Source: Rhizobium alarense (GTDB taxonomy: Bacteria > Pseudomonadota > Alphaproteobacteria > Rhizobiales > Rhizobiaceae). From it: 64,000 bases of DNA. Every line of letters begins with the position of its first letter. Position 1 is the stretch's first letter. This document shows positions 2,495-59,049 of this stretch, in pieces. The notes under the pieces were generated by a model, which was not told the DNA's origin, searched no databases, and saw nothing but the letters and a program-made list of their open reading frames with translations. The position numbers were made by a program, and so were the translations under genes. The DNA is taken from NCBI RefSeq assembly GCF_021555155.1, contig NZ_JAKGBU010000017.1, positions 1 through 64,000 on the forward strand, given 5' to 3'.

Positions 2495-4372
2495 TCAGAC
2501 GCGGATCAGCGCCGGATCTTCGTTGTCATAAAGCCGCTCCAGAAGTTCAGTACGGCGGGTGAGGATTTTCTTGATGTTCAGCGACCCCTTGTCGGTGATC
2601 TCGTGATGCTGCAGAGACGGTGGCTCGGCGAGGATCAGCGCCCGGGTTATACGCCTGGCCGAGCCGGTGACCTGGGCGTTCATGGTCCTCAACCGCTCTT
2701 CGATCAGCGCCATCAGGAGCGGATCGGTGATGGTCCCGCCAGTGTTCGGGCTGACCTCGGCCCCGCCGGTTGCGGGAAAGACGAACAATCCGACCTCGCC
2801 GCGATCGTGGCCGCAGATGACAACGTCCTGCACCAGACCAGCCATCTCCTTCAATGCCGCCATTCTCAAATTACCTGCCTGCACCCAGGTGCCAGTGTCG
2901 AGCTTGAAGTCCTCAGACACGCGGCCGTCGAAGACAAGGCCGCGTGAGGCGTCGGAGGGATCCACGAATTTCACCGCGTCACCGGTGATTAGGAAGCCCT
3001 CATCGTCGAAGGCCTCCGCGGTTTTGGCGGGATCGTTGAAATAACCTTGCGTCACGTTCGGCCCCTTCACCCGGATCTCGCAGCGCATCTCATCGTCGGG
3101 GATCAGCTTGACCGTCACCCCCGGCAGCGGCACGCCGATCACACCCGATCGGCCGATCGGCTCGTGAACCAGCAGGCAGGCGGGTGCGGTCTCGGTCAGA
3201 CCCCAACTCGAGATCATTAGAGGCAGTCCGCCGCGCGCCTCGATGCAGAAGCGTTCCAGCGCTTCCCAGACCTGCTGCGGCAGCGAGGCGCCTGCGTAGA
3301 ACAGAAGCTGCTGATCTTTGAAGAGGTGGCGTTGCAGGGCGGGATCGTCCTTGATCGCCTCGACCAGCATCCCCCAGCCGACCGGCACGTTGAAGGTTAA
3401 TGTCCCCGGTCGGTCGGTGCGGTTCTTCAGCGTGGTGGCAAACCCCTTGTCGGTAGGCTTGCCACTGTCGATGGTCAGCGTGCCGCCATGGGCGAGCATC
3501 ATGTTCACGTTGTGGCTGCCACCAAAGACGTGGTTCCACGGCAGCCAGTCGGTGATCCGCGGCGGTTCATCGGTCAGGAACGGTAGCGCTACCGCCAGTT
3601 GCGCCTGGTTCACGCACATCATGCCGTGTGTGGTCAGCACACCTTTAGGGTCCGAGTTGGAACCGGAGGTAAAAAGGATCTTGGCCAACGTGTCCGGTCC
3701 GACCTCGGCATGGACGGCGTCAATATCGACGCTCGCATCGCCATTCAAAAGCTCTGCAAACGGCGTCAGGGGGCGATCCGCCGCGCCGCGCACGACGACC
3801 ACTTCGACCTCGGCAAGCTGCGGCAGGGCTATGGCGGCGGCATAGCGCGCAGCGTCGTCGACGAAAGCCAGCTTCGGTTTCACCGTGTCGAGCATATAGA
3901 TCAACCGCCCATGCGCTTCGGGGATCAGCGAATACTGTTCGGCGAGCGGCACCACGGGGACACCGGCATATTGCGCGGCAAGCGACAGGATCAGGTGGTC
4001 CAGCCCGTTTCCAGACATCATCGTGATGCAGTCGTCCTGTCCCAGCCCGCGCGCCACCAGGGCGGAAGCGACAGCGCGCACCTGGTTCAGAAGCTCGCCA
4101 TAGGTAACGTTTCGCCAGCCCGGACCGGTGTCGGGACGCTCAGCCACCGCGACCCGATAGGGCGCCTTCTCGGCCCATTCATGTAGCCAGGCGCCGGTGT
4201 TCGATACTGCTTGCGGCAACTCGTAGCCCGAACTCAATAGGATAGTTCCGTCGGCACGCGTCTGAGCGAGGACACTGTGCGGCAAATATCGGGTCGCGGT
4301 ATGCTGGCGAGCCCAGTCCGCCCGCGAGGTGAGGTCGGTCGGATACTCGGGCTGTCTTGTGATCGCGGCCAT
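2495..4372 (-). CDS. Acyl-CoA synthetase, feruloyl-CoA synthase type
   Basis: A 625-residue AMP-forming (ANL superfamily) ligase. The P-loop-like motif ILFTSGSNSDPKGV has the serine-rich form seen in feruloyl-CoA synthases rather than the usual SGTTGxPKG, and the adenine-binding SSWGLTETAP and GDAVKFVD segments follow. The protein is longer than typical 500-550 residue ligases, as feruloyl-CoA synthases are. It should activate a hydroxycinnamate or arylpropionate with ATP and CoA in the cytoplasm, the first committed step of the pathway encoded by its operon neighbours. The amidohydrolase gene follows 11 bases downstream and the hydratase gene ends 23 bases upstream. The exact aromatic substrate is unknown. 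Confidence 0.87.
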   Translation of the reverse strand: MAAITRQPEYPTDLTSRADWARQHTATRYLPHSVLAQTRADGTILLSSGYELPQAVSNTGAWLHEWAEKAPYRVAVAERPDTGPGWRNVTYGELLNQVRAVASALVARGLGQDDCITMMSGNGLDHLILSLAAQYAGVPVVPLAEQYSLIPEAHGRLIYMLDTVKPKLAFVDDAARYAAAIALPQLAEVEVVVVRGAADRPLTPFAELLNGDASVDIDAVHAEVGPDTLAKILFTSGSNSDPKGVLTTHGMMCVNQAQLAVALPFLTDEPPRITDWLPWNHVFGGSHNVNMMLAHGGTLTIDSGKPTDKGFATTLKNRTDRPGTLTFNVPVGWGMLVEAIKDDPALQRHLFKDQQLLFYAGASLPQQVWEALERFCIEARGGLPLMISSWGLTETAPACLLVHEPIGRSGVIGVPLPGVTVKLIPDDEMRCEIRVKGPNVTQGYFNDPAKTAEAFDDEGFLITGDAVKFVDPSDASRGLVFDGRVSEDFKLDTGTWVQAGNLRMAALKEMAGLVQDVVICGHDRGEVGLFVFPATGGAEVSPNTGGTITDPLLMALIEERLRTMNAQVTGSARRITRALILAEPPSLQHHEITDKGSLNIKKILTRRTELLERLYDNEDPALIRV

Positions 4373-12274: not shown

Positions 12275-13255
12275 CTATGGGATTGCCACGATGGCTCCAC
12301 TGGCGCGCCGTTCTTCGGCTGCGCGGTGCGCCTCGGCGATATCCTCCAGTGCAAAGCGTTGCCCGATCTCGAGCGAAACATGCCCCTTCGCAACTGCATC
12401 GAACAGATCGGCCGCATTCGACCGGAACCGGTTGAGATCGGCATTGTGCGGAAAAACGGACGGACGAGTCAGGAACAGACAGCCCTTCTTGTTCAACAAT
12501 TCGGGGTCGATCGCCGGCGCCTTTCCCGAGGAGGCACCGTAGATCACCACGAGTCCGAAGGGCGCTGCGCAGTCGAGTGACTTAATCAGCGTGTCTTTGC
12601 CAACGGCATCATAAACAACGCGCGCCCTTTCGCCGTCAGTCGCCTTGAGCAAAGCATCCGGCCAATCCTGCTGGCTCGTGTCCACGACCGCGATACAGCC
12701 GGCGTCGAAAGCCGCCTGGCGCTTCTGAGGCGATCCCGTGCCGCCGACCACGCGCGCACCAAGGGCGGTAGCCCAGCGTGTCAAAATCTGTCCGACGCCA
12801 CCGGCTGCGGAATGCACGAATATGAGGTCGCCCCGCTGAACTGCATGGGTGTGGCGCAGGAGGTACTGCGCAGTCATGCCCTTGAACAGGACTGTCGCAG
12901 CCGTTTCGTCGTCGATGTCATCGGGCACCTGCACGAGCTTCTCTGCCGGAACATTGCGCCGGTCGGCATAGGCGCCAACACCGGCATTCATATAGGCAAC
13001 CCGCTGGCCTGGCTTGATATCATGAACCCCTTCGCCCACCGCTTCCACGATACCAGCCGCTTCGAAGCCGAGGCCTGTGGGCAGAGGAAGCGGATAAATG
13101 CCTTTCCGCTGATAGATGTCGATAAAATTGAAGCCGATCGCCGTCTGGCGGACCTGCACCTCACCTTCGGCCGGGTCGGGAATATCTTCTTGCACGATCT
13201 TGAGAACTGACGGATCGCCAAACTCCGCTATTTCTATCACACGTCTGTTCGTCAT
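12275..13255 (-). CDS. Zinc-free quinone oxidoreductase (NADPH:quinone reductase type)
   Basis: A 326-residue medium-chain dehydrogenase/reductase. The GFNFIDIYQRKGIYPLP segment near residues 41-57 and the nucleotide site SAAGGVGQI near 150 are typical of QorA-type quinone reductases, which lack the zinc ligands of alcohol dehydrogenases. It should reduce quinones with NADPH in the cytoplasm, which suits a region rich in dihydroxy- and trihydroxy-aromatics that autoxidise to quinones. It is divergent from an ArsR-type regulator with a perfect inverted repeat between them, so it is likely induced by quinone or electrophile stress. Confidence 0.88.
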   Translation of the reverse strand: MTNRRVIEIAEFGDPSVLKIVQEDIPDPAEGEVQVRQTAIGFNFIDIYQRKGIYPLPLPTGLGFEAAGIVEAVGEGVHDIKPGQRVAYMNAGVGAYADRRNVPAEKLVQVPDDIDDETAATVLFKGMTAQYLLRHTHAVQRGDLIFVHSAAGGVGQILTRWATALGARVVGGTGSPQKRQAAFDAGCIAVVDTSQQDWPDALLKATDGERARVVYDAVGKDTLIKSLDCAAPFGLVVIYGASSGKAPAIDPELLNKKGCLFLTRPSVFPHNADLNRFRSNAADLFDAVAKGHVSLEIGQRFALEDIAEAHRAAEERRASGAIVAIP

Positions 13256-22694: not shown

Positions 22695-23756
22695 TCATTC
22701 AGGACGCCTGCCTTCCCAGGCCTGCTGCAGGAGTTCTCGAATTGCGTCCCGTTCGATCGGGCGCGGGTTCCAATAAGGGTTCTTGACGGCCAGTTCGGCG
22801 GCTTTGTCCAGGTCACGTTCCGCCAGCCCCAGGTCTTTCAGAGCAAGGGGAGCGCCAAGCGACGCAGCAAAATCGTGGAGCCCGCCCCCGACCGTTCCAC
22901 CGAACAGTGCGGCGATTGGGGAAAGCGCTTCGGCTGCCGCAGTAGCGTTGTAGGATGCCGCGTGCGGCAGCAAAATTGCATGAGTCTCGGCATGCGGCAG
23001 GTTGAAGCTGCCACCGAGGGTGTGGCAAAGCTTGTGATGCAAAGCCATGCCGACCTGTGCGAGAACCGTACCGCACAGCCAGGAGCCGAACTGGGTTTCG
23101 CTTCGTGCGACAAGATTCCCGGGATCGGCAATAACTCGCGGCAACCCGTCTTTGAAGGCGCGGATGCCGGCAATCGCCAATTGATCGGAAAGCGGATTTC
23201 GGTCCTGCGCGTAGAGAGCCTCCACCGCATGGGCCATGGCGTTGAGACCGCTTGTGACAGTGAGCTTGACAGGCAGAGTGGCAACCAGTTCCGGATCGTA
23301 TAGAATGACCTCGGGCTGCACCCTGGGCGAGCGCAGGGTCTCCTTGACCCCGTTCGCCGTCTGGCCCAGCACGGGCGTCGCCTCGGAACCCGCATAGGTC
23401 GTCGGTAGAACAATCTGCGGCAGGTCGGAGCGGAGCGCGATTGCCTTGGACAAACCTATGGTCGAACCGCCACCGATGGCGACAAGGCAGTCCGCACCGG
23501 CGGCAGCCTCCACGGCGTCCTCCGTGATTTCGACGGGCGTGTGCATGGCCGCTCGACTGAAAAGGCTATGTCCCCTCGGACCCAAGGCTGACAGAACCGC
23601 CTCCCCCTGATCCGACTGTTCCGGTGTCGTCAGCACCATCGCACTTCGAAGGCCAAGGGCCTCCATCTCGGAGCCGATCTCGTGTCGAACGCCCGCCCCT
23701 AAGCGAATTCGCACGGGAGGATGTCCCGGCTCAAAACCGGCATGAAACGTCTGCAT
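22695..23756 (-). CDS. Maleylacetate reductase (copy 2)
   Basis: A 353-residue iron-alcohol-dehydrogenase-family enzyme with GGGSTIGLSKA (NAD site), PTTYAGSEATP and HHKLCHTLGGSFNLPHAETHA. It has the same length as copies 1 and 3 and aligns along its whole length, but differs at many positions. It lies between the monooxygenase (stop-to-start gap of 3 bases) and the dioxygenase, so oxygenation, ring cleavage and reduction are in one operon. Product is beta-ketoadipate. Confidence 0.92.
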   Translation of the reverse strand: MQTFHAGFEPGHPPVRIRLGAGVRHEIGSEMEALGLRSAMVLTTPEQSDQGEAVLSALGPRGHSLFSRAAMHTPVEITEDAVEAAAGADCLVAIGGGSTIGLSKAIALRSDLPQIVLPTTYAGSEATPVLGQTANGVKETLRSPRVQPEVILYDPELVATLPVKLTVTSGLNAMAHAVEALYAQDRNPLSDQLAIAGIRAFKDGLPRVIADPGNLVARSETQFGSWLCGTVLAQVGMALHHKLCHTLGGSFNLPHAETHAILLPHAASYNATAAAEALSPIAALFGGTVGGGLHDFAASLGAPLALKDLGLAERDLDKAAELAVKNPYWNPRPIERDAIRELLQQAWEGRRPE

Positions 23757-43599: not shown

Positions 43600-45261
43600 T
43601 CAGGCGACGGCGCGCTCAGGTTCCACGACGACATGGAGGCGCGAGACGACTTCGTCGAATCGGCGGCGCAGTTCGGCCGGAGAGCCCGCGGTTGCCGCGA
43701 CATAAAAATCCGGCCGGAGCATCACATAGCTTGCGCCGATGCCGTTCAGCCAACGGGCATAGGTGCCTTCCACATCGACCACGTCACTTTCCGTACCCAT
43801 CGAACCGATCCGGACCGTGTGGCCGCCAAGAAGATCGAGAACCTCGCGCTGGCCGACCGACAGCGCGTGCGCCGGATCGGCATCGAGCCCGATCACCATC
43901 CAGCCGAAACCGACGGCTTGGTCGAAGCGATCACGCTTGCCATTCGCCTCGACCACACCCTGGACCGAGAGTTCACCGGCATGGGCGGCATCGCCACACC
44001 AGATGCCGGGGCCGAGCTGGCAGATATCGGTCGGAACGGGCTTGAAGGCGCGCGCCTTGAGCTCGTCCTTCATCCACCGGTCGCGTTCGGCGGCTTCGGC
44101 CGGATCAGCGATACAGATAATGCTGCCAAGTTCCTGGCTGAAATTGATGTAGTGTTTGGCATGCTCGATGCGCTCGGAAGAATAGCTGTCGAGCACGCCA
44201 GCGCCGACACGGCCTTCCAGGATGGCGTTGAGTCGCCAGCCGAGAGCCAGCGCATCGCGAAGGCCGGCACACATGCCCTCGCCTGCAAATGGCGGCATCA
44301 GATGCGCGGCATCCCCGGCAATGGCGCAACGGCCCTTGTTCCAGACCTTGGCCCAGCGCGCCTGGAACCGGTAGACGGCACTGCGTTCGAGGACCGCATT
44401 GTCCGGTGTCAGGCCCCAAGGCTCCAAAAGCTTCCAGGCATTTTCCGGCTTGGTGAGTTCCTCGGGGTTTTCACCCGGCAGCACCATATATTCCCAGCGT
44501 CGCCGCCGCGGGCCGCCGGCGACCGGGCCGGGGCCGCCGGGTACGATCGTGGTCGGCCGCTTCGGATCACAGAGCTGCCACTGCGCCGGCTCGCCTTTGC
44601 GCGAGGCGACGTAATCGAAGCTCGGCAGCATGTCGAGGATCAGCCAGTCGAAGAAATAGCCCTTGTCCTCGTTTTCGATGCCGAGCGCCTGACGCACCAT
44701 GCTGTTGGCGCCATCCGCCCCCACCACATAGCGCGCTCGGATTGTCCGCGTTTCGGTGCTTTGTGCATCCTCCAGCGGGTTGCGCTTGATGCTCAGTGTC
44801 GCGGATTCAGCGTCCTGGTGAAGGTCGACAGCCTCATATCCGCTGAGACGCCTCACCGAGGGAAGTTGCGTGGCAATGTTGGTGAGACGGGATTCGAGCT
44901 CGGGCTGGTTGAACCAGTAGCGGACGCGCCAGCCAGAGGCAGAGGTGCTCTGCCAGTCGAGGATCTGGATGTTTTCGCGGTTGGCGTCTTTCCAGTAATA
45001 GAGTTCGTCATGGTAATTGATCGCCGCATCGTTTTCCGAATCGATACCGAGGCTTGCGAGGATGCGGGCGATCTCATGATCATAGGTGACGGCGCGCGGG
45101 CGGCCATAGGCCTCGCTCCAGCGCTCGATGAGCGTCACCTTCTTTCCCGTATTGCCGAGGATGATTGCCAGAAATGTACCGACCGGGCCACCGCCGACAA
45201 TGGCGACATCGGTATCAAATTCGCCGGCTGCATTCCGGTCGGAATTGGTTTGAAACGTCAC
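43600..45261 (-). CDS. FAD-dependent aromatic monooxygenase, MhpA-like
   Basis: A 553-residue class A flavin monooxygenase: VAIVGGGPVGTFLAIIL near the N-terminus, ERWSEAYGRPRAVTYDHE (the MhpA-like segment), YVVGADGANSMVRQ near 170-185 and IAGDAAHLMPPFAGEGMCAGLRD near 300. The GTG at 45261 has GGGAGA upstream and I use it rather than the open frame to 45351. It resembles 3-(3-hydroxyphenyl)propionate and resorcinol hydroxylases. As first gene of the operon that continues with a maleylacetate reductase and hydroxyquinol dioxygenase, it should form hydroxyquinol. Confidence 0.87.
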   Translation of the reverse strand: MTFQTNSDRNAAGEFDTDVAIVGGGPVGTFLAIILGNTGKKVTLIERWSEAYGRPRAVTYDHEIARILASLGIDSENDAAINYHDELYYWKDANRENIQILDWQSTSASGWRVRYWFNQPELESRLTNIATQLPSVRRLSGYEAVDLHQDAESATLSIKRNPLEDAQSTETRTIRARYVVGADGANSMVRQALGIENEDKGYFFDWLILDMLPSFDYVASRKGEPAQWQLCDPKRPTTIVPGGPGPVAGGPRRRRWEYMVLPGENPEELTKPENAWKLLEPWGLTPDNAVLERSAVYRFQARWAKVWNKGRCAIAGDAAHLMPPFAGEGMCAGLRDALALGWRLNAILEGRVGAGVLDSYSSERIEHAKHYINFSQELGSIICIADPAEAAERDRWMKDELKARAFKPVPTDICQLGPGIWCGDAAHAGELSVQGVVEANGKRDRFDQAVGFGWMVIGLDADPAHALSVGQREVLDLLGGHTVRIGSMGTESDVVDVEGTYARWLNGIGASYVMLRPDFYVAATAGSPAELRRRFDEVVSRLHVVVEPERAVA

Positions 45262-45515
45262 GTTCTTCTCCCTCGTTTGGCGTGGTGATGGCGCATTTCG
45301 CGAAGTCGGTGACAATGCTGCAGCAGGCACCGGCAACGGATCGCCGGACAACAGTCAGCCGTTCCATGGACGCGCTTCTTCGCGGGCACACGGGGTAGCC
45401 GTCAGTTTTTGCTTTTGCTTGACTTGCTTTTGTCGCCGTCTTATGCGGCCGATCTTCAGATCTCGGTTACCCCGATCTTCATGCCTACCTCCCTACTTTC
45501 TCCATCGGATAAATG

Positions 45516-45544
45516 ATCCTATCTCATAACTGAATGATTTTCAA
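45516..45544 (-). promoter_or_regulatory. Candidate promoter of the module D operon in the 514-base divergent gap
   Basis: Read on the minus strand, TTGAAA (45544-45539) and TAGGAT (45521-45516) are separated by 17 bases. The promoter lies about 255 bases before the monooxygenase start, giving a long leader. TATCT and AGATA arms flank the spacer region, which a TetR-type repressor could occupy. The rest of 45262-45775 is AT-rich toward the TetR gene and holds no recognisable gene. Confidence 0.35.
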
Positions 45545-45775
45545 GATAGAGCGTATGTCACTGTTGAGCACAATTCATTCGCACTGCAGCATCGAATTTT
45601 ATCGTTTATTATCATCAGCCTATGAAGCCACAGGCCAATGCACGACAGGAGTTTACGAGTGCTAAGACGATTCTCCTGCAGTGCACTTGATGCTAAAATT
45701 CATGGATGAAATACATTCACTGTTGAACGTCTGTCATTTTTGGCTAAGCTGGAATCGGCAAAATGGGAGATCTTT

Positions 45776-46441
45776 GTGGATAGCGCAGGGAATGAAGGCC
45801 GCGTGGCACGGCGCCAGCGGCGCAACCGCGAGGCCTTGCTCAAGGCTGGACATGAGGTGATTTCCGAAAAGGGCATCGACGCGGCAACGATGATGGAGAT
45901 CGCAGAGCGGGCGGACGTCGCCTCGGGCACGATCTACAATTATTTCAAATCCAAGGATGAGCTTGCGATCGCTGTTCTCGAGTTGGTGATGGAACAGCTG
46001 GCCAGGCGCATCGAAGATGTAACAAACACGTTTGCCGACCCGGCACAGGTCTATGCGTTTGGTATTCGCACGGTTCTAGAAACGGCAACCGGAGACATGC
46101 GTTGGCGACAGCTCTTACATCGCTCGGAAGTCATTGCCGACGCCATATTCCAACGCATGGGTCCCTTTGCCATTCGAGACGTGCAAAACGCAACCTCAGC
46201 CGGACGCTTTTCGACTCCCGATCCTGATCTCACATGGCGGATGAGCTGCTTTGCGATCGTCGGCGTCTCGCTGGCGATCACAAAGGACGAGCTGCCGGCT
46301 TCCGTGATCGACGAGACCGTCGTGCGTCTCCTTTGCATGGCCGGCATGAGCGAGACGGATTCGCGCGAACTCGCCTCGCGTCCACGTCCTTCCCTGCCCC
46401 CCGAAGCCGCGCCGAACTGGAGCAAAGCAAAGGCGCGTTGA
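45776..46441 (+). CDS. TetR-family transcriptional regulator, module D
   Basis: A 221-residue TetR regulator. RRNREALLKAGHEVISEKGIDAATMMEIAERADVASGTIYNYFKSKDELAIAVLE is the complete DNA-binding block at about residues 13-67. I chose the GTG at 45776 because GGGAG lies 6-7 bases upstream; a TTG at 45740 is in frame without such support. It is divergent from the module D operon, which it likely represses until an aromatic ligand binds the helical C-terminal domain. Confidence 0.87.
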   Translation: MDSAGNEGRVARRQRRNREALLKAGHEVISEKGIDAATMMEIAERADVASGTIYNYFKSKDELAIAVLELVMEQLARRIEDVTNTFADPAQVYAFGIRTVLETATGDMRWRQLLHRSEVIADAIFQRMGPFAIRDVQNATSAGRFSTPDPDLTWRMSCFAIVGVSLAITKDELPASVIDETVVRLLCMAGMSETDSRELASRPRPSLPPEAAPNWSKAKAR

Positions 46442-49579: not shown

Positions 49580-50257
49580 TCAAAGCTGCGCTGTCCAGTC
49601 GAAATCGCGGAGATAGAGACCGATGGGGTTGAGACGGATGACGCCCTCGTCCTGCGGCGGGGTGAGGGTTACGGTAGCGATGCCGCGAAAACGGCGCGTG
49701 GCCGTCTCCTTGCCGCGGCGGTCGCGCTCGAACTCGGTCCAGTCGACCTGATAGGACTGGTTCGATCGTGCGACGATGTTGTTGACCTCGACCGCCACCG
49801 TCGCGGTCTTCGCCTTTTCGAAGGGAGAATTGGAACGGAACCAGGCATTGACCTTCTCGGTCGCCGGGTCCGAGGTGCGCAACAGCGCATAGGTCCGGTC
49901 GATATATTGCTTCTGCACGACCGCATCCGGTGTCACGCTGCGGAAGTTCGAGACGAAGCTGCCGAGCGTGGCGCGCACCACACGCGGGTCGGCATATTCG
50001 ATCTGCTGCGGGAAGCCGGCATTGGAGGCCGTGCCGAGCTTGTCGACCTCGACGATATAGGGAACGAGCTTCACCTGCGTGCTCTGGTAAAGAGCGTAGC
50101 CGAAGCCGATCACGGCCATCACCATGCCGGTGATACCGACAATGCGCCAGGCCGCGGCTGCTCTCACATAGGAGCCGTAACGCTCGTTCCATTCGTTGCG
50201 CGCGGCGAGATAAGGATTGGCAATATGGGGATTATTTGGCGGATTGCGTCCGGTCAT
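49580..50257 (-). CDS. trbF: Conjugal transfer protein TrbF (VirB8 homolog)
   Basis: A 225-residue inner-membrane protein: about 40 cytoplasmic residues, one transmembrane helix ([21 protein letters not shown]) and a periplasmic NTF2-like VirB8 domain with [14 protein letters not shown] and the [14 protein letters not shown] segment. It lies 17 bases after trbL. It nucleates the secretion channel. Confidence 0.93.
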
Positions 50258-50274: not shown

Positions 50275-51471
50275 CTATTTGTTCTCGTTGATGGGCGGGG
50301 GCGGAGGTAGCGGCGTGGGCCGGTTCGACTGACGCGTCTGGTCGAGCTTGGCGTTAGCAAGGCCGAGCAGCGATCCGGCATAGGCGCCGGGTGAGGCTAT
50401 CGCCTTTTCCTTTGCCGCCGATCCGGCAGCGTGAGCAGCACTACCGATCCCCGATGCCATGCCGCGAAGTGCCGCGCCGGCCATCGAAGAGCCCCCTGCC
50501 CTGGCCGAGCTGGCCGTCTGCGCTCCTTTCGTTGCGGCACTCGCGCCAAGGAAAGCGCCGCCGGCCGCGAATGTCGCGGCCTGGCCGCCATGACGGATCG
50601 CTTCCATGCCGCCGGCAATCGAGGCGCCCTGAACCACACCCTGCAGGATCGGCGGCACATACATGGCGATGACGAAGACCACGACCGAGATGCCGGCGAT
50701 GGCAAGTGTGGTGATGAACTGCTCGGAGGTCGCCGTCGGCGCCTCGGCCAAGCCTAGCAGGATGTCCGAGCCGATCTTGGCGATCATCACCAGCGCCATC
50801 AGCTTCATGCCGACGGAGAAGGCGTAGACCAGATATTTGACCGCGAAGTCCTTGGTGAAGGACGAGCCGCCGAGACCGAGCATGATCATGCCGGCGAGCA
50901 GGCCGACATACATTTCGACCATCACGGCAACGAAGATCGCTGCGACGAGTGAAAACGACACGACCACGACCACCATGGCGAAGACTGCGGCGATCGCCAG
51001 CGCATTGTCTTCCCAAAGCCCGAACTTTGCCTGTTCGGACATCTTGGTCGCGACCCGGATGCCCGCGTCGAAGATGTTTGCGGGCGACGCCGAGCCGCCG
51101 CCGGCGCCGATCTGATAGAGGCTGTCGACCACGGCCTTCGCGAAGGTCGGTCCCTGGTCGAGGATGAAGGCGAAGAGGCCGATGAACATGATCCGCCGGA
51201 CGAGTTCGGCGAACCAGCTATCGAGCGAGGCGGCATTGATCGCCAGCCACACGGCGGCGATCCCGACCTCGATGCCGGCAAGGATCCAGAACAGCGAACG
51301 CGCCGCGTTCAACACCGTCGTCTCCCAGCCTTTCGCGGCGGTGACGACGGAGTTTTCGAGCGTGGTCAGGACGGAACCCTGCTGTGCGAATGCAGGTGCA
51401 CTCGCCAACAGGACGAGCCCAATTGCAATGAACACGAGCTCCAGCTTCCGGGAGGGACGGACGATCACCAT
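50275..51471 (-). CDS. trbL: Conjugal transfer protein TrbL (VirB6-like)
   Basis: A 398-residue polytopic membrane protein. It has an N-terminal signal-like helix ending in AFAQ, about six further hydrophobic segments between residues 45 and 270, and a Gly/Ala/Ser-rich C-terminal tail that ends in a proline-rich stretch. The length and order match TrbL. The ATG at 51471 overlaps the trbK stop by 7 bases and has GGAGATG upstream. It forms the inner-membrane channel. Confidence 0.93.
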   Translation of the reverse strand: MVIVRPSRKLELVFIAIGLVLLASAPAFAQQGSVLTTLENSVVTAAKGWETTVLNAARSLFWILAGIEVGIAAVWLAINAASLDSWFAELVRRIMFIGLFAFILDQGPTFAKAVVDSLYQIGAGGGSASPANIFDAGIRVATKMSEQAKFGLWEDNALAIAAVFAMVVVVVSFSLVAAIFVAVMVEMYVGLLAGMIMLGLGGSSFTKDFAVKYLVYAFSVGMKLMALVMIAKIGSDILLGLAEAPTATSEQFITTLAIAGISVVVFVIAMYVPPILQGVVQGASIAGGMEAIRHGGQAATFAAGGAFLGASAATKGAQTASSARAGGSSMAGAALRGMASGIGSAAHAAGSAAKEKAIASPGAYAGSLLGLANAKLDQTRQSNRPTPLPPPPPINENK

Positions 51472-51695
51472 CGCGGTTTCATCTCCTGGCCGCCACGGAC
51501 GTCGCGGTCCGGATCGCCGCTGAAGAACTTTTCGCGATGCTCGCGGCGCTGGGTATCGGAGGCAGGTTGCGTAGCGGTAGCGCCCGACCCGGACATGGGT
51601 ACTGGACTTGGCTGGACCACGTTCCAGGTGACGACGCCGGCACTGAGTGCGGCGATGCCCGCCAAGACGAGGATGATAATCAGACGCGGGCTCAC
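51465..51695 (-). CDS. trbK: Entry exclusion protein TrbK
   Basis: A 76-residue protein, the normal TrbK size, with one N-terminal hydrophobic helix (LIIILVLAGIAALSAGVVTW) and a polar tail. TrbK proteins block redundant entry of related plasmids. Its last 25 or so residues, ending RGGQEMKPRW, closely resemble the end of TrbJ, encoded just upstream, which ends RGGQTMEPRW. It overlaps trbJ by 4 bases and trbL by 7. No lipobox cysteine is seen, unlike TrbK of IncP plasmids. Confidence 0.88.
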   Translation of the reverse strand: MSPRLIIILVLAGIAALSAGVVTWNVVQPSPVPMSGSGATATQPASDTQRREHREKFFSGDPDRDVRGGQEMKPRW

Positions 51696-52501
51696 CAGCG
51701 GGGCTCCATGGTCTGGCCGCCGCGGATGTCACGCTCGGTCGCACTGAAAAATTGTTCACGGCGCGCCTGGGCCAGATCCTTTTGGGCCTGCTCGGACTGG
51801 AACCACGTGCCCATCATGGTCATCTGTTGGGAGACGAGGCCGCGCAGCTTCTGCATCTGCGCGACCTGCTGTGCGGCGATCTGGTGCCCGACCTGCAGCG
51901 CCTTCATCTGGCCGTCGGCCGATTCCGACATCGAGCGCAGCGACGACATTGTGCTTTCCTCGCTCGAGAACTGGTCGGCCGTCAGGTTCGCCGCCTTCAG
52001 TGTTCCGGCGATCGTATCGCGGTTGGTATCCGACCAGTTCTGGTAGGTCGTGGAGAAGCTCGCCCCGTCAGGCAGATTGCTCTTCATCTCGGCAAAGCTC
52101 TGGAAGCGCTGTTTGAGCACATCGTCGATATTGCCCATCGAGAAGGCGACGCCTTGCCCCTGGGCGACGACGTTTTGCAGGCTATTCAGGTCGCTTTCGA
52201 CCTGCCCCCAGATATGGTTCGGCAACTGCGCCGTGTTTTGCAGGAGGTTGTTGTAGATGTTGAGCTGGTTCTGGATCTGCTCGGCAAGCTGGGAGATCTG
52301 GGTGATCTGGTTGTTCACCTGCTCCGCCGACTTGCCGACCAGCGAGACGAGCTCGGCATTGTTGGCGAGCTGCGTCCATTCGGTCGCTTGGCCTGTCACG
52401 CCACCGGCCTGAGCGGGAACTGGTAGTACAGCCGGGAGAATGATCAACGCGATGACGGCGGTGCGTGCCACCCTATTCGACCGGGAAGAGTGTTTCGGCA
52501 T
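51692..52501 (-). CDS. trbJ: Conjugal transfer protein TrbJ (VirB5-like)
   Basis: A 269-residue secreted protein. The signal peptide ends near PAQAGG (residue 33), and the mature part is helical and glutamine-rich (VNNQITQISQLAEQIQNQLN), as in VirB5/TrbJ minor pilin proteins. The ATG at 52501 follows an AAAGGGGAAT site and lies 29 bases inside trbE; the frame to 52549 is not supported. The C-terminal tail REQFFSATERDIRGGQ and following MEPRW is shared with TrbK. Confidence 0.92.
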   Translation of the reverse strand: MPKHSSRSNRVARTAVIALIILPAVLPVPAQAGGVTGQATEWTQLANNAELVSLVGKSAEQVNNQITQISQLAEQIQNQLNIYNNLLQNTAQLPNHIWGQVESDLNSLQNVVAQGQGVAFSMGNIDDVLKQRFQSFAEMKSNLPDGASFSTTYQNWSDTNRDTIAGTLKAANLTADQFSSEESTMSSLRSMSESADGQMKALQVGHQIAAQQVAQMQKLRGLVSQQMTMMGTWFQSEQAQKDLAQARREQFFSATERDIRGGQTMEPRW

Positions 52502-54935
52502 GGGCGATTCCCCTTTGCTGAAGCCAGTGGAGGGGCCATGCGGCCCCATGTTCGGAGTGGAGGGCGCGAATACGCTTCAAGTCTTCCTTGCCGGACGCGC
52601 CCACGAAGGAGAGCGCGACGGGACCGAGCGCCATGTCGAACAACCGGCGGCCCTCCGGTGAAACGACGTAGTATTCGCGCTTCGGAAGCGCCGTCGCGAC
52701 GATCTCGATCTGCCGCTCGTTGAAGCCGATGCGCTCATAGAACTCGCGCGTGCCCGGCTCCCGCGCGGCCCCGTTGGGCAGGCAGATTTTTGTCGGGCAG
52801 GATTCCTTGAGCACGTCGATGATGCCGGAGCGCTCCGCATCCGAGATCGACTGGGTGGCGAGCACGACGGCGCAATTGGCCTTGCGCAACACCTTCAGCC
52901 ACTCGCGGATCTTGTCGAGAAACACCGGGTGGCCGAGCATCAGCCAGGCCTCGTCGAGAATGATGAGGCTCGGTGCCCCGGTCAGCCGTCTTTCGATGCG
53001 GCGGAAGAGATAGGTGAGCACGGGCACAAGATTGCGCTCGCCCATGTTCATTAGTTCCTCGATCTCGAAGCACTGGAACGCGCCGAGCGCCAGACCATCT
53101 TCCTCGGCGTCGAGAAGCTGACCCATGGGGCCGTCGACCGTATAGTGATGCAGCGCATCCTTTATCTCGCGCATCTGCACGCCGGATACGAAGTCCGAGA
53201 GCGAGCGGCCGCGCGATTCCGCCATCAGCCCGATCTGCCGGGAGATGGCGTTGCGATAGTCGGGCGTGATGGTCACACCTTGCAGCGCCACGAGTGTCTC
53301 GATCCACTCGGTTGCCCAGGCGCGATCACCATCGGTCGAAAGTTCCGCCAGTGGGCAGAAGGCCAGCGCCCTCCCCTCCCCTGCTGGACCGATATCGCCG
53401 CTGATCGGGTAGTGATCGCCATTGAGTCCGAGCGTCAGCGGCAGCATCGAGCCACCCTTGTCGAAGGCGAAGACCTGGGCTTGGCTGTAGCGCCGGAACT
53501 GCGCGGCGATCAGCGCCAGCAGGGTCGACTTACCCGAACCGGTCGGCCCGAAGATCAGCGTGTGCCCGACATCGTCGACATGCAGATTCAGCCGGAACGG
53601 CGTCGAGCCGCTGGCAACCTGCATCAGCGGCGGTGAGCCAGGCGGATAGAACGGGCAAGGCGCCGTCGGGCTTCCCGACCAGACGCTATTGAGCGGGATA
53701 AGATCGGCGAGATTGCGCGTATTGATCAGCGGTTCGCGAATATTGGCATAGGAAACGCCCGGCAGGCTGCCGAGAAAGCCATCGGTCGCATTCAGCGTCT
53801 CGATCCGTGCACCGAAACCTTCCGCCTGGATCAGCCGGCGGACCGCCTCGCACTTTTCCTGAAGGCGGCTCCGCTGCTCGTCGAAAATCACGATGACAGG
53901 CGTGTAGTAGCCATAGGCGACGAGTTGCGATGCCGCTTCGGCGATCGCGTCCTCGGTCTCGGCAACCATCATCATGGCGTCCTGATCGACTGAGCGGCTT
54001 TGCGTCTGGAAGAGCTGATCGAAGAAGGGCCTGACCTTCTGCTGCCATTTCTTGCGGGTGCGTTCCAGCTTTGCCCTCGCCTCCTCGGCATCGAGGAAGA
54101 CGAAACGCGATGACCAGCGATAGGTGAGCGGCATCAGGTCGAGGCTGTTCAGGATCCCCGGCCAGCTTTCCGCTGGCAGGCCGTCGATCGCCACCACGCC
54201 GAGGAATCGGTTCTCGACCAGCGGCGTCAAACCATGCTGCAGCTCGGCCGTCACCAGCCAGTCGAGATACATCGGGATCTCGGGCAAGCGCACCGGATGG
54301 TTCTCGCCGGTGATGCAGAAGCGGATAAACTGGAAGAGTTCGTCATAGCGGGCGACCCGGAATCCGCTGCGCTCTTTAGTCTCCCGTGTCATCATCCGGC
54401 GGATCGACACAACGTTCGCGAGATATTGCTCGACCTCGCGGATCGAGGTCAGGAAGCTTTCGAGCGCCTTGTCGGCATAAGTGGCGGAACGACTGGCCGC
54501 ATCCGAATAGACATAGCGGGTCAGCCCCGAGCGCCGCGGCTCCGGCGGCCGCCATGTCAGGATCAGTGCGTGCCGGCTCTCGAAATGGCCCCTCTCCTTC
54601 TGGAAATGCGCTCGCCGTTCGGCGTCGATCGCCCGCGTGACCGGATCGGGAAAATGGCAATCATCCTCGGCCGGATAATCGCCGGTCGGAACTCGGACGG
54701 CCTCGACCTGGATCATCCATCCGGAGCCGAGCCGGGACAGGATCGCGTTGATCTGCCGCGACACCTCGTTGCGCTCGGCGTCGGTCGAGCTCTCGCTGTC
54801 CGGCCCGGCGAAATACCAGCCGGCCATCAGAGAGCCGTCCTTGAGCAGGATCACGCCGTTGTCGACCAGGCCGGCATAGGGCACCAGATCGGCAAACGAC
54901 GGTCCCGAATGGCGGAAGGATTTGAGGGCGACCAT
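52473..54935 (-). CDS. trbE: Conjugal transfer ATPase TrbE (VirB4 homolog)
   Basis: An 820-residue cytoplasmic ATPase, full family length. It begins LKSFRHSGPSFADLVPYAG, the CagE/TrbE/VirB4 N-terminal domain; Walker A GPTGSGKSTLLALIA lies near residue 465, and Walker B SLIILDEAWLML followed by VVLATQSISDAERSG near 650-700. It energises pilus assembly and substrate transfer. It starts 10 bases after trbD. Confidence 0.95.
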   Translation of the reverse strand: MVALKSFRHSGPSFADLVPYAGLVDNGVILLKDGSLMAGWYFAGPDSESSTDAERNEVSRQINAILSRLGSGWMIQVEAVRVPTGDYPAEDDCHFPDPVTRAIDAERRAHFQKERGHFESRHALILTWRPPEPRRSGLTRYVYSDAASRSATYADKALESFLTSIREVEQYLANVVSIRRMMTRETKERSGFRVARYDELFQFIRFCITGENHPVRLPEIPMYLDWLVTAELQHGLTPLVENRFLGVVAIDGLPAESWPGILNSLDLMPLTYRWSSRFVFLDAEEARAKLERTRKKWQQKVRPFFDQLFQTQSRSVDQDAMMMVAETEDAIAEAASQLVAYGYYTPVIVIFDEQRSRLQEKCEAVRRLIQAEGFGARIETLNATDGFLGSLPGVSYANIREPLINTRNLADLIPLNSVWSGSPTAPCPFYPPGSPPLMQVASGSTPFRLNLHVDDVGHTLIFGPTGSGKSTLLALIAAQFRRYSQAQVFAFDKGGSMLPLTLGLNGDHYPISGDIGPAGEGRALAFCPLAELSTDGDRAWATEWIETLVALQGVTITPDYRNAISRQIGLMAESRGRSLSDFVSGVQMREIKDALHHYTVDGPMGQLLDAEEDGLALGAFQCFEIEELMNMGERNLVPVLTYLFRRIERRLTGAPSLIILDEAWLMLGHPVFLDKIREWLKVLRKANCAVVLATQSISDAERSGIIDVLKESCPTKICLPNGAAREPGTREFYERIGFNERQIEIVATALPKREYYVVSPEGRRLFDMALGPVALSFVGASGKEDLKRIRALHSEHGAAWPLHWLQQRGIAHAETLFPVE

Positions 54936-58813: not shown

Positions 58814-59049
58814 TGGGAGTATTGCAGGATCGCCACATGTTGTTGGGAGCTCCCAACAGACTCCCCCAGAACCGATTTCTGTTTTCCTTGCAGGGGTCGT
58901 ATCCAACAATTTTGAATCGAAAGATCGAGGGAAGCCGCCGCCCAAGCTGCCTTACCCGCGGCTTGTTGGGAGCTCCCAACAAGCCGCCTTCCGCCGGATG
59001 GCACGGTGCTTCGAAACTAAATTGCAGAGATCAACGCCATGAGCCGTAA
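58810..59049 (+). CDS. Small ORF between repA and repB, RepD-like
   Basis: An open frame of 79 codons from an ATG at 58810 that overlaps the ends of repA and repB. It contains both parS palindromes in phase, so the peptide carries two copies of LLGAPN (LLGAPNRLPQ and LLGAPNKPPS). A small gene called repD with parS sites inside it has been described in the same place in an octopine Ti plasmid. Whether this one is translated is unknown, and the repeated hexapeptide may be a by-product of the parS sequence. Confidence 0.4.
   Translation: MMGVLQDRHMLLGAPNRLPQNRFLFSLQGSYPTILNRKIEGSRRPSCLTRGLLGAPNKPPSAGWHGASKLNCRDQRHEP
58842..58857. repeat. parS site 1
   Basis: GTTGGGAGCTCCCAAC is a perfect 16-base palindrome fitting the repABC parS form GTTNNNNGCNNNNAAC, in the repA-repB gap where RepB-binding sites are known to lie. 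The next copy starts 123 bases later. Confidence 0.88.
58965..58980. repeat. parS site 2
   Basis: A second GTTGGGAGCTCCCAAC, identical to site 1. Here the symmetry extends three more bases on each side (CTT and AAG), giving a 22-base perfect palindrome. It ends 58 bases before the repB start. RepB bound here should act as centromere and can reduce repBC transcription. Confidence 0.88.

Follow-up and report, generated by a model that had tools for sequence, protein, structure and literature searches.

A C-terminal tail shared by TrbJ and TrbK suggests that entry exclusion proteins block entry by posing as the pilus-tip protein

The window analysed here is the first 64,000 nucleotides of contig NZ_JAKGBU010000017.1 of Rhizobium alarense (assembly GCF_021555155.1, 201 contigs, referred to as G000). 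It carries a trb operon of the Ti/rhizobial plasmid type in which trbE, trbJ, trbK, trbL and trbF are all on the minus strand; trbK sits between trbJ and trbL, and the order trbE-trbJ-trbK-trbL is the same on pTi. TrbJ, a VirB5-like protein of the pilus-tip type, and TrbK, a Ti-type entry exclusion protein, have only a C-terminus of 22-24 residues in common. A shared tail, with a sequence specific to each lineage, also occurs in Ti/rhizobial, IncP, gonococcal, IncN2 and VirB5-EexN systems of Proteobacteria and Campylobacter. The C-terminus of the exclusion protein copies that of the pilus-tip protein, which suggests that it blocks entry by posing as this tail. The features of the locus are as follows.

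49580-50257, minus strand: trbF
50275..51471, minus strand: trbL, VirB6-like platform protein (PRK13841, 726 bits; PF04610), the candidate partner of both tails
50713..50772, minus strand: TrbL residues about 234-253, second tail-associated segment, predicted to be periplasmic
51025..51156, minus strand: TrbL residues 106-149, hydrophilic, predicted to be periplasmic, one of two peaks of tail association
51465..51695, minus strand: trbK, Ti-type entry exclusion protein, 76 amino acids (TIGR04361, PF10907)
51468..51539, minus strand: C-terminal tail of TrbK, HREKFFSGDPDRDVRGGQEMKPRW, common to TrbJ
51615..51683, minus strand: N-terminal hydrophobic segment of TrbK, putative membrane anchor read from the sequence, topology predicted
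51692..52501, minus strand: trbJ, VirB5-like pilus-tip-type protein, 269 amino acids (TIGR02780, PRK13842)
51695..51763, minus strand: C-terminal tail of TrbJ, RREQFFSATERDIRGGQTMEPRW, common to TrbK
52473-54935, minus strand: trbE

TrbJ scores 266.2 bits against TIGR02780 (curated cut-off 100.55) and 511 bits against PRK13842, also over its cut-off. Its start was set by the annotated start in relatives; the longest open frame begins at 52549. The Pfam search gave no match of TrbJ to PF07996 (VirB5) and there was no relevant sequence match in the PDB; TrbJ of R751 matches PF07996 at E 2.1e-4 with 22.2 bits, under the cut-off of 24.7. An AlphaFold model of TrbJ built from 35 close relatives was too poor (predicted local distance difference test score, pLDDT, 41) and was not used. 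TrbK starts with a GTG that overlaps the trbJ stop. It scores 95.3 bits against TrbK_Ti (TIGR04361, cut-off 50) over model positions 1-64 of 64, and 84 bits against PF10907 (DUF2749). While TrbJ has a long body, TrbK apart from its tail consists of a short hydrophobic anchor plus a cysteine-free linker. Having no cysteine, TrbK is not a lipoprotein; it has no match at E up to 0.1 to either TIGR04359 (the RP4-type TrbK lipoprotein) or EexN (NF033894). Given the putative N-terminal anchor, its tail would be periplasmic.

The preliminary description of this DNA had noted that two otherwise unrelated proteins end alike, and both parts of that observation hold. TrbJ ends in RREQFFSATERDIRGGQTMEPRW and TrbK in HREKFFSGDPDRDVRGGQEMKPRW, each followed directly by the stop codon. 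BLASTP aligns the tails with 15 of 23 residues identical and one gap (38 bits, E = 2e-9), and all remaining matches between the two proteins have E 0.76 or worse. The family models cross-match below their cut-offs: TrbK_Ti and DUF2749 find the TrbJ tail at 3.4e-8 and 2.5e-5 (the latter just below), and PRK13842, the TrbJ model, finds the TrbK tail at 1.4e-4. In the whole genome, TrbK_Ti matches at E < 0.2 only on these two tails. The window pair has a tail similarity score of 81; the representative of its clade scores 73, against a maximum of 36 in 500 shuffles.

Within the Ti-type clade the two tails co-vary beyond shared ancestry. Over 80 loci, distances between TrbJ tails and between TrbK tails are correlated with a partial Mantel r of 0.465 given the TrbJ body and the TrbK N-terminus, a value that 0 of 2000 permutations reach, and the own tail pair outscores the mean cross pair at 74 of the 80. 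The co-variation by which the shared tail was to be checked is thus present within this clade as well as between clades. The gene ends are also similar as DNA, as first noted, with 46 of 66 nucleotides identical in the window, but the same codon is used at only 6 of 13 shared degenerate residues. Across the 80 loci, matched tails use the same codon at 253 of 525 such residues (0.482), and unmatched tails at 0.476 (standard deviation 0.019). Since matched pairs share codons no more than unmatched ones, the likeness of the DNA is explained by that of the proteins; nothing points to a recent exchange, and the resemblance is held at the protein level. Gene conversion was therefore ruled out as its explanation in the Ti clade.

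The shared tail is not confined to Ti/Ri plasmids and recurs in many exclusion systems of mating pair formation type T (MPF_T, VirB-type). When the gene ends are read, the end of TrbJ and the end of the next small open reading frame (ORF) change together across elements (TrbJ given first): PEGQKMEPRW / KDGQEMGPRW in NGR234a, GNGQDFKPQW at both ends in Labrenzia, PTSGGQQMEPRW / PTHGGQQMKPRW in Novosphingobium, TSGGEKMKVEW / TTGGEKMKIEW in L227, TPFRPEW / KPFEPEW in L229, ASPARTW / PSPKREW (TrbK) in IncP R751, YEGLSEPVNRSHSKEY / YDSLKEPVDRSKSKEF in L150, GVGPDDLPSNSMKW / SVGPDELPKQTKSW in L260 and TGSNKGY / TGRDKGY in pR6. The corresponding ends are QMRTWTFRPSPADNY / QMRQWEFKPSPKDDY in L327, an IncP-type trbJKL on pHUSEC411like (WEFKPSPKDDY/WTFRPSPADNY for TrbK/TrbJ). 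Only a short core, RxRFL, is common in integrative and conjugative elements (ICE-type), which we take to be of the Tn4371 type. Two ORFs at such positions deserve mention. On the gonococcal conjugative plasmid (L274), an unannotated ORF at the trbK position (2292-2447) has a lipobox-like cysteine and ends in DVLKRPYKRKE, and TrbJ there ends in DILKHPYRRGQ; it is probably an unannotated exclusion protein. On E. coli pR6-1255-3 (L002), a hypothetical protein between trbJ and trbL (3260-3463, no NCBIfam match) is probably an exclusion protein because its end, DKGY, matches the TrbJ end, NKGY.

VirB5 and the EexN lipoprotein likewise share a tail, less strongly in some pairs, as in R388 (GMPTIQ / GMPKIR), R46 (ASPSIN / NSPKI), IncN2 (NFIYGSDGGHNPAPLK / LFVHGKDNSHSVPKLN), G526 (SSGEPFELD in both proteins) and G289 (SSGEPFELD / SSGEPFELN). 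The EexN model has 65 positions and its match ends at residue 64 of 76 in R388 EexN and at 59 of 75 in R46 EexN; the tail therefore lies outside the model. The two genes need not be neighbours. They are 5.7 kb apart in G282 (AFEDYMLGKSKTRP / AFEDYMLGKTKKRP, with AFEDYMLGK common), and in G435 TrbJ and EexN are about 10 kb apart (IPPKRGIW / TPPKRGVW, with PPKRG common). G265, G574 and G596 (L142, L139 and L144) each have two exclusion candidates: the ORF adjacent to trbJ lacks the shared tail, and an EexN about 7 kb away carries it. On the Campylobacter plasmid pMTVDSCj07-1 (NZ_CP017416), EexN (12694-12987) and the VirB5 tail (23664-23744) are about 10 kb apart in different gene clusters, and the tails are identical at 25 of 25 residues and 74 of 75 nucleotides; at the DNA level the EexN tail is here a nearly exact and fresh copy of the 3' end of VirB5. 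Matches to this tail at E up to 10 were found in 103 plasmid records, at 221 places. The genome of the window itself has a second conjugative-type type IV secretion system (T4SS) locus on contig C16 (L278, L309) with VirB5 and an EexN lipoprotein, whose tails, LARRGHVDL / LARRGHLQL, share a LARRGH that differs from the tail of the window system.

The Campylobacter copy and a few other loci bear on whether the similarity could be a by-product, without function, of neighbouring gene ends that recombine or undergo gene conversion. L113 and L120/L175 have no trbK; their TrbJ carries at its end a TrbK-type tail whose stop runs straight into trbL, and the crossovers differ; judged from the sequence, these look like natural trbK deletions by recombination between the tails. 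We nevertheless consider the by-product explanation most improbable: in the Ti clade matched tails agree in their synonymous codons no better than unmatched tails do, genes 6-10 kb apart show the shared tail too, and the fraction of shared codons in the other pairs checked ranges from 1/7 (L260) and 2/11 (G526 and L327) to 5/7 (IncN2), against 23/24 in Campylobacter. The earlier proposal that a tail had been duplicated or exchanged is not supported as a recent DNA event in the Ti clade, though copying is plain in the Campylobacter plasmid and an apparent tail-to-tail recombination is seen where trbK was lost.

If the L113 and L120/L175 elements still transfer, the TrbK tail works on TrbJ. At L145/L219, L192, L221 and L210, read by eye, trbK is apparently frame-broken or missing and the TrbJ tail is intact. 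As TrbJ keeps its tail at loci lacking trbK, the tail seems to be of use to TrbJ itself. L054/L055, with KVEW tails and no trbK, had suggested that the PRW of the tail is lost when trbK is absent; this idea was ruled out by L227, in which both genes are present and both tails changed (KMKVEW/KMKIEW).

For the comparison between clades, TrbJ was located by similarity of its body and TrbK by position and hydrophobicity only. TrbK was assigned at 219 of 260 TrbJ loci; at the other 41 there was none by those criteria, some having a frame-broken gene. Another 19 VirB5/EexN pairs came from matches to hidden Markov models and eight plasmid pairs from annotation, the unannotated gonococcal ORF excepted, which was the sole open frame listed at its place. 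The EexN searches gave 30 places. L281 was omitted as its tails are identical to those of G023; L285, L286, L293, L294 and L296 had no VirB5/TrbJ model match on the same contig, the 349-genome search included; and for L291 and L304-L307 the adjacent ORF had already been counted. One pair (G526far) spans two contigs of one genome. Apart from the first of the Ti type, every pair was collected when the pattern had already been noticed. L326, L327, L329 and L328/L330 were added after the first permutation test and were chosen by taxon, identity or the need of a search, not by tail; L326 came from the search for a pKPC-type plasmid. Because loci overlap between searches, draws at the clade level and not locus counts carry the statistics.

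Pairs, one from each clade, were scored by local BLOSUM62 alignment of the TrbJ/VirB5 C-terminus (last 25 residues) with that of the exclusion protein (last 50 residues), with 10,000 permutations (200 draws of representatives x 50). With 21 clades (250 pairs) the matched mean is 42.0 and the permuted mean 18.3 (standard deviation 1.8, maximum 30.5 of 10,000); with 14 clades (246 pairs) the values are 40.6 and 18.2 (standard deviation 2.3, maximum 31.5 of 10,000). The same 250 pairs give 46.2 matched against 18.6 permuted in 15 clades and 37.4 against 18.1 in 36 clades. At no clade threshold tried did any permuted mean reach the matched mean. By tail shuffling, 16 of 21 clades have p < 0.05. 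A chance resemblance, which only the individually weak R388, R46, L030, L249 and L243 might recall, is refuted for the set as a whole by these permutations and by the BLASTP E = 2e-9 in the window; that the tail is shared and co-varies we regard as practically certain. When the exclusion protein is compared with the C-termini of T4SS proteins, that of VirB5/TrbJ comes first in all six systems in which more than one protein was scored (R388, R46, R751, IncN2, pS28-3 and the window; 3-12 proteins each), although by a small margin in R388 (22 vs 19) and R46 (21 vs 17). A first control used the C-terminus of the upstream gene, which TrbJ beats in 12 of 18 clades (means 27.9 vs 17.3); this set is rich in ICE-type loci, where the tail match is weak. 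A search for EexN in 289 genomes of the class found, besides G000, four places in three genomes and no neighbouring VirB5 was recognised (an upstream ORF at L334, which was not identified, scores 12); this replication is therefore uninformative.

What the tail may do is indicated by published experiments. When RP4 genes were cloned into recipients, only trbJ and trbK protected against T4SS-dependent killing by the donor (PMC11045733). Reviews report entry exclusion by TrbK for Ti plasmids, with TrbJ and TrbK both acting (PMC4231840, PMC3907764). Exclusion by pKPC_UVA01 is abolished by loss of the TrbK C-terminus, and the same is stated for IncP TrbK (PMC8923210). We regard the tail as probably the exclusion determinant.

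The protection by recipient TrbJ or TrbK (PMC11045733) would also be explained if the tail bound a receptor of the recipient cell that is needed for mating and the exclusion protein occupied that receptor. One tail per host would then be expected, yet plasmids of enterobacterial hosts have tails unlike one another (R388 GMPTIQ, R46 SPSIN, R751 SPARTW, pR6 NKGY), as do the two systems of G000, so we hold this to be highly unlikely. Given these differences among plasmids of enterobacterial hosts, whatever reads the tail should be encoded by the plasmid, and the unlike tails of the window and contig C16 systems also point to a plasmid-encoded partner.

Within the Ti-type set, the TrbJ tail tracks TrbL. 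The correlation is 0.66 given the TrbJ body (80 loci), 0.78 given the TrbJ body, TrbE, TrbF and the TrbK N-terminus (40 loci), and 0.60 given the TrbJ body, TrbE and the synonymous distance of the same TrbL block (78 loci); those of TrbE and TrbF with the tail turn negative once TrbL is included. In sliding windows over TrbJ (78 loci), tracking of TrbL is confined to the last ~27 columns (0.45-0.49; elsewhere -0.23 to 0.20). On the TrbL side, association with the tail is highest (0.62) at columns ~110-160 and ~210-260, moderate through much of the first 100, and -0.10 to 0.16 from column 260 to the end, although that part is more variable. The TrbJ tail correlates at 0.63 with three hydrophilic, presumed periplasmic segments of TrbL and at 0.10 with its other segments, the latter falling to -0.13 once the presumed periplasmic ones are included; for the TrbK tail and the same presumed periplasmic segments the value is 0.30 (p 0.002). 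These segments were fixed by hydropathy, with the membrane side predicted, but after the sliding windows had been seen. In R388, a VirB5 pentamer sits on a VirB6 pentamer, with one VirB5 between two VirB6 (PMC9259494).

The tail could instead bind VirB5/TrbJ itself, each tail clasping its neighbour in the tip pentamer, so that a foreign clasp from the recipient locks the incoming tip. VirB5 is indeed placed at the tip of the pilus and presumed to contact the recipient (PMC12624023), and recipients with TrbJ alone are protected against killing by the RP4 T4SS (PMC11045733). Once TrbL is accounted for, though, three of four analyses show hardly any tracking of the TrbJ body by the TrbJ tail (0.033, 0.121 and -0.045, but 0.296 in the fourth), and TrbJ windows other than those in the last ~27 columns do not track TrbL. 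We regard binding to VirB5 as unlikely. Rather more doubtful is a docking signal that acts inside the donor, where TrbK would take the seat of TrbJ on TrbL and regulate pilus assembly, exclusion being a by-product. Both tails track the same TrbL segments, as expected from such a signal, and pKPC_UVA01 needs TrbK in the donor for exclusion (PMC8923210). Deletion of trbK, however, reduces pKPC_UVA01 transfer only about 2- to 4-fold and cloned trbK excludes when present in the recipient alone (PMC8923210), cloned trbJ or trbK alone protects from RP4 killing (PMC11045733), and several elements in the set are without trbK.

From the arrangement of VirB5 on VirB6, the expected plasmid-encoded reader and the published facts on RP4, Ti and pKPC_UVA01, we propose that TrbK acts as a decoy of the TrbJ tail. 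The tail of the VirB5-like TrbJ would be a plasmid-specific ligand for a plasmid-encoded part of the machine, most likely the VirB6-like platform TrbL. TrbK, EexN or RP4-type TrbK would be a membrane anchor or lipoprotein that ends in a decoy tail and is held in the recipient periplasm. If the docking donor has the same machine, the decoy would take the site of the TrbJ tail on donor TrbL, a late step would be stopped, and the DNA would not enter. A plasmid with a different tail/TrbL pair would not be stopped, which would explain the specificity of exclusion. We find a decoy of the VirB5 tail that competes for a plasmid-encoded partner, probably donor TrbL/VirB6, the best explanation and a reasonably likely one; for donor TrbL/VirB6 as the target taken by itself, we put the chances a little above even. 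The preliminary idea of TrbK as a mimic of TrbJ that occupies its partner is partly supported and has become the best-supported explanation, with TrbL/VirB6 as the candidate partner.

Several results weigh against this proposal. Tail shuffling is individually non-significant in five of the 21 clades, R388 (p 0.085) and the four ICE-type clades of L030 (0.097), L249 (0.108), L144 with its adjacent TrbK (0.193) and L243 (0.524); R46 alone has p 0.058, its clade being represented by an IncN2 plasmid in the 21-clade test. Elements of the L144 type match the distant EexN instead (scores 43-59 in four pairs, 22-30 in five weaker ones), and no matching exclusion protein was found for the L243 type. 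At a clade cut of 0.7, the own exclusion protein is top-scoring for only 19 of 34 representatives, because neighbours carry similar tails. The sliding-window values along TrbJ and TrbL carry no p-values. The TrbJ tail, trbK and the beginning of trbL adjoin one another, so part of the TrbL signal could come from a block that recombines, and the synonymous TrbL distance still correlates with the tail at 0.306 given the TrbL protein distance. The correlation of 0.296 between TrbJ tail and body was obtained given TrbL and TrbE, and that of 0.121 given TrbL is marginal (p 0.048). In the 40-locus subset the TrbK tail tracks TrbL weakly (0.245, p 0.059), and the correlation of the two tails given TrbL is non-significant (0.135, p 0.18). 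The requirement of pKPC_UVA01 for TrbK in the donor as well (PMC8923210) is not predicted by a simple decoy. Finally, donor VirB6 sits in the donor inner membrane, and it and a recipient protein would have to meet across two envelopes.

TrbJ, TrbK, EexN and entry exclusion are themselves already known. No earlier report of the shared tail as a principle was found in the one-line family descriptions or in the literature searched, from which subscription journals were mostly outside scope, and the same literature yielded nothing on EexN together with the VirB5 C-terminus. The window TrbK is a member of TrbK_Ti (TIGR04361 / PF10907 DUF2749) over cut-off and in the Ti-plasmid gene order, but the one-line descriptions of these families name only entry exclusion or unknown function, and in their models the agreement of the conserved end with the TrbJ tail is visible only as cross-matches below cut-off. 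RP4-type TrbK of IncP (TIGR04359) also lies between trbJ and trbL, has an exclusion role and ends like its own TrbJ (R751, L327); unlike the cysteine-free TrbK of the window, it is a lipoprotein of another family model. EexN (NF033894; IncN/IncW and relatives), encoded beside VirB5 or elsewhere, has after its core a stretch resembling the cognate VirB5 tail; its core is different from that of the window TrbK, which would work like EexN by its tail only. In TraS-TraG (F), Eex-TraG (SXT/R391) and ExcA-TraY (IncI), too, a recipient protein recognises a donor protein (PMC8923210), and a published table places TraG/TraY in the VirB6 row (PMC12624023). The excerpts examined describe no tail mimicry for these pairs, and the SXT Eex/TraG determinants are cytoplasmic according to a cited title, whereas the tail of the window system is predicted to be periplasmic. 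By its tail match, which is above shuffled and permuted scores, the window TrbK falls by sequence into a proposed grouping of tail-mimic exclusion proteins.

Elsewhere in the window, a gene resembling flavin adenine dinucleotide (FAD) monooxygenases and, next to it, a divergent TetR-like regulator, both read from translations, lie beside the trb operon (43600-46441). Two identical 19-nucleotide palindromes, TTGTTGGGAGCTCCCAACA, at 58840-58858 and 58963-58981 lie between two partition-like ORFs named by eye, and are possibly centromere-like sites.

A 2022 paper states that 'The eex mechanism remains unknown' (PMC9825185), and for IncP TrbK no donor partner has been identified according to PMC8923210. 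For exclusion in MPF_T systems, the co-varying tail offers a concrete ligand and a candidate partner, VirB6. It also gives a reason for both TrbJ and TrbK acting in recipients, and a basis for predicting exclusion between given plasmids. More generally, we see about an even chance that in MPF_T elements of Proteobacteria and Campylobacterota the VirB5 tail is a plasmid identity tag read by VirB6/TrbL, and that exclusion proteins of at least three families (Ti TrbK, RP4-type TrbK and EexN) are decoys bearing this tag. If so, the tail sequence would define exclusion groups, and their specificity would be readable from sequence.

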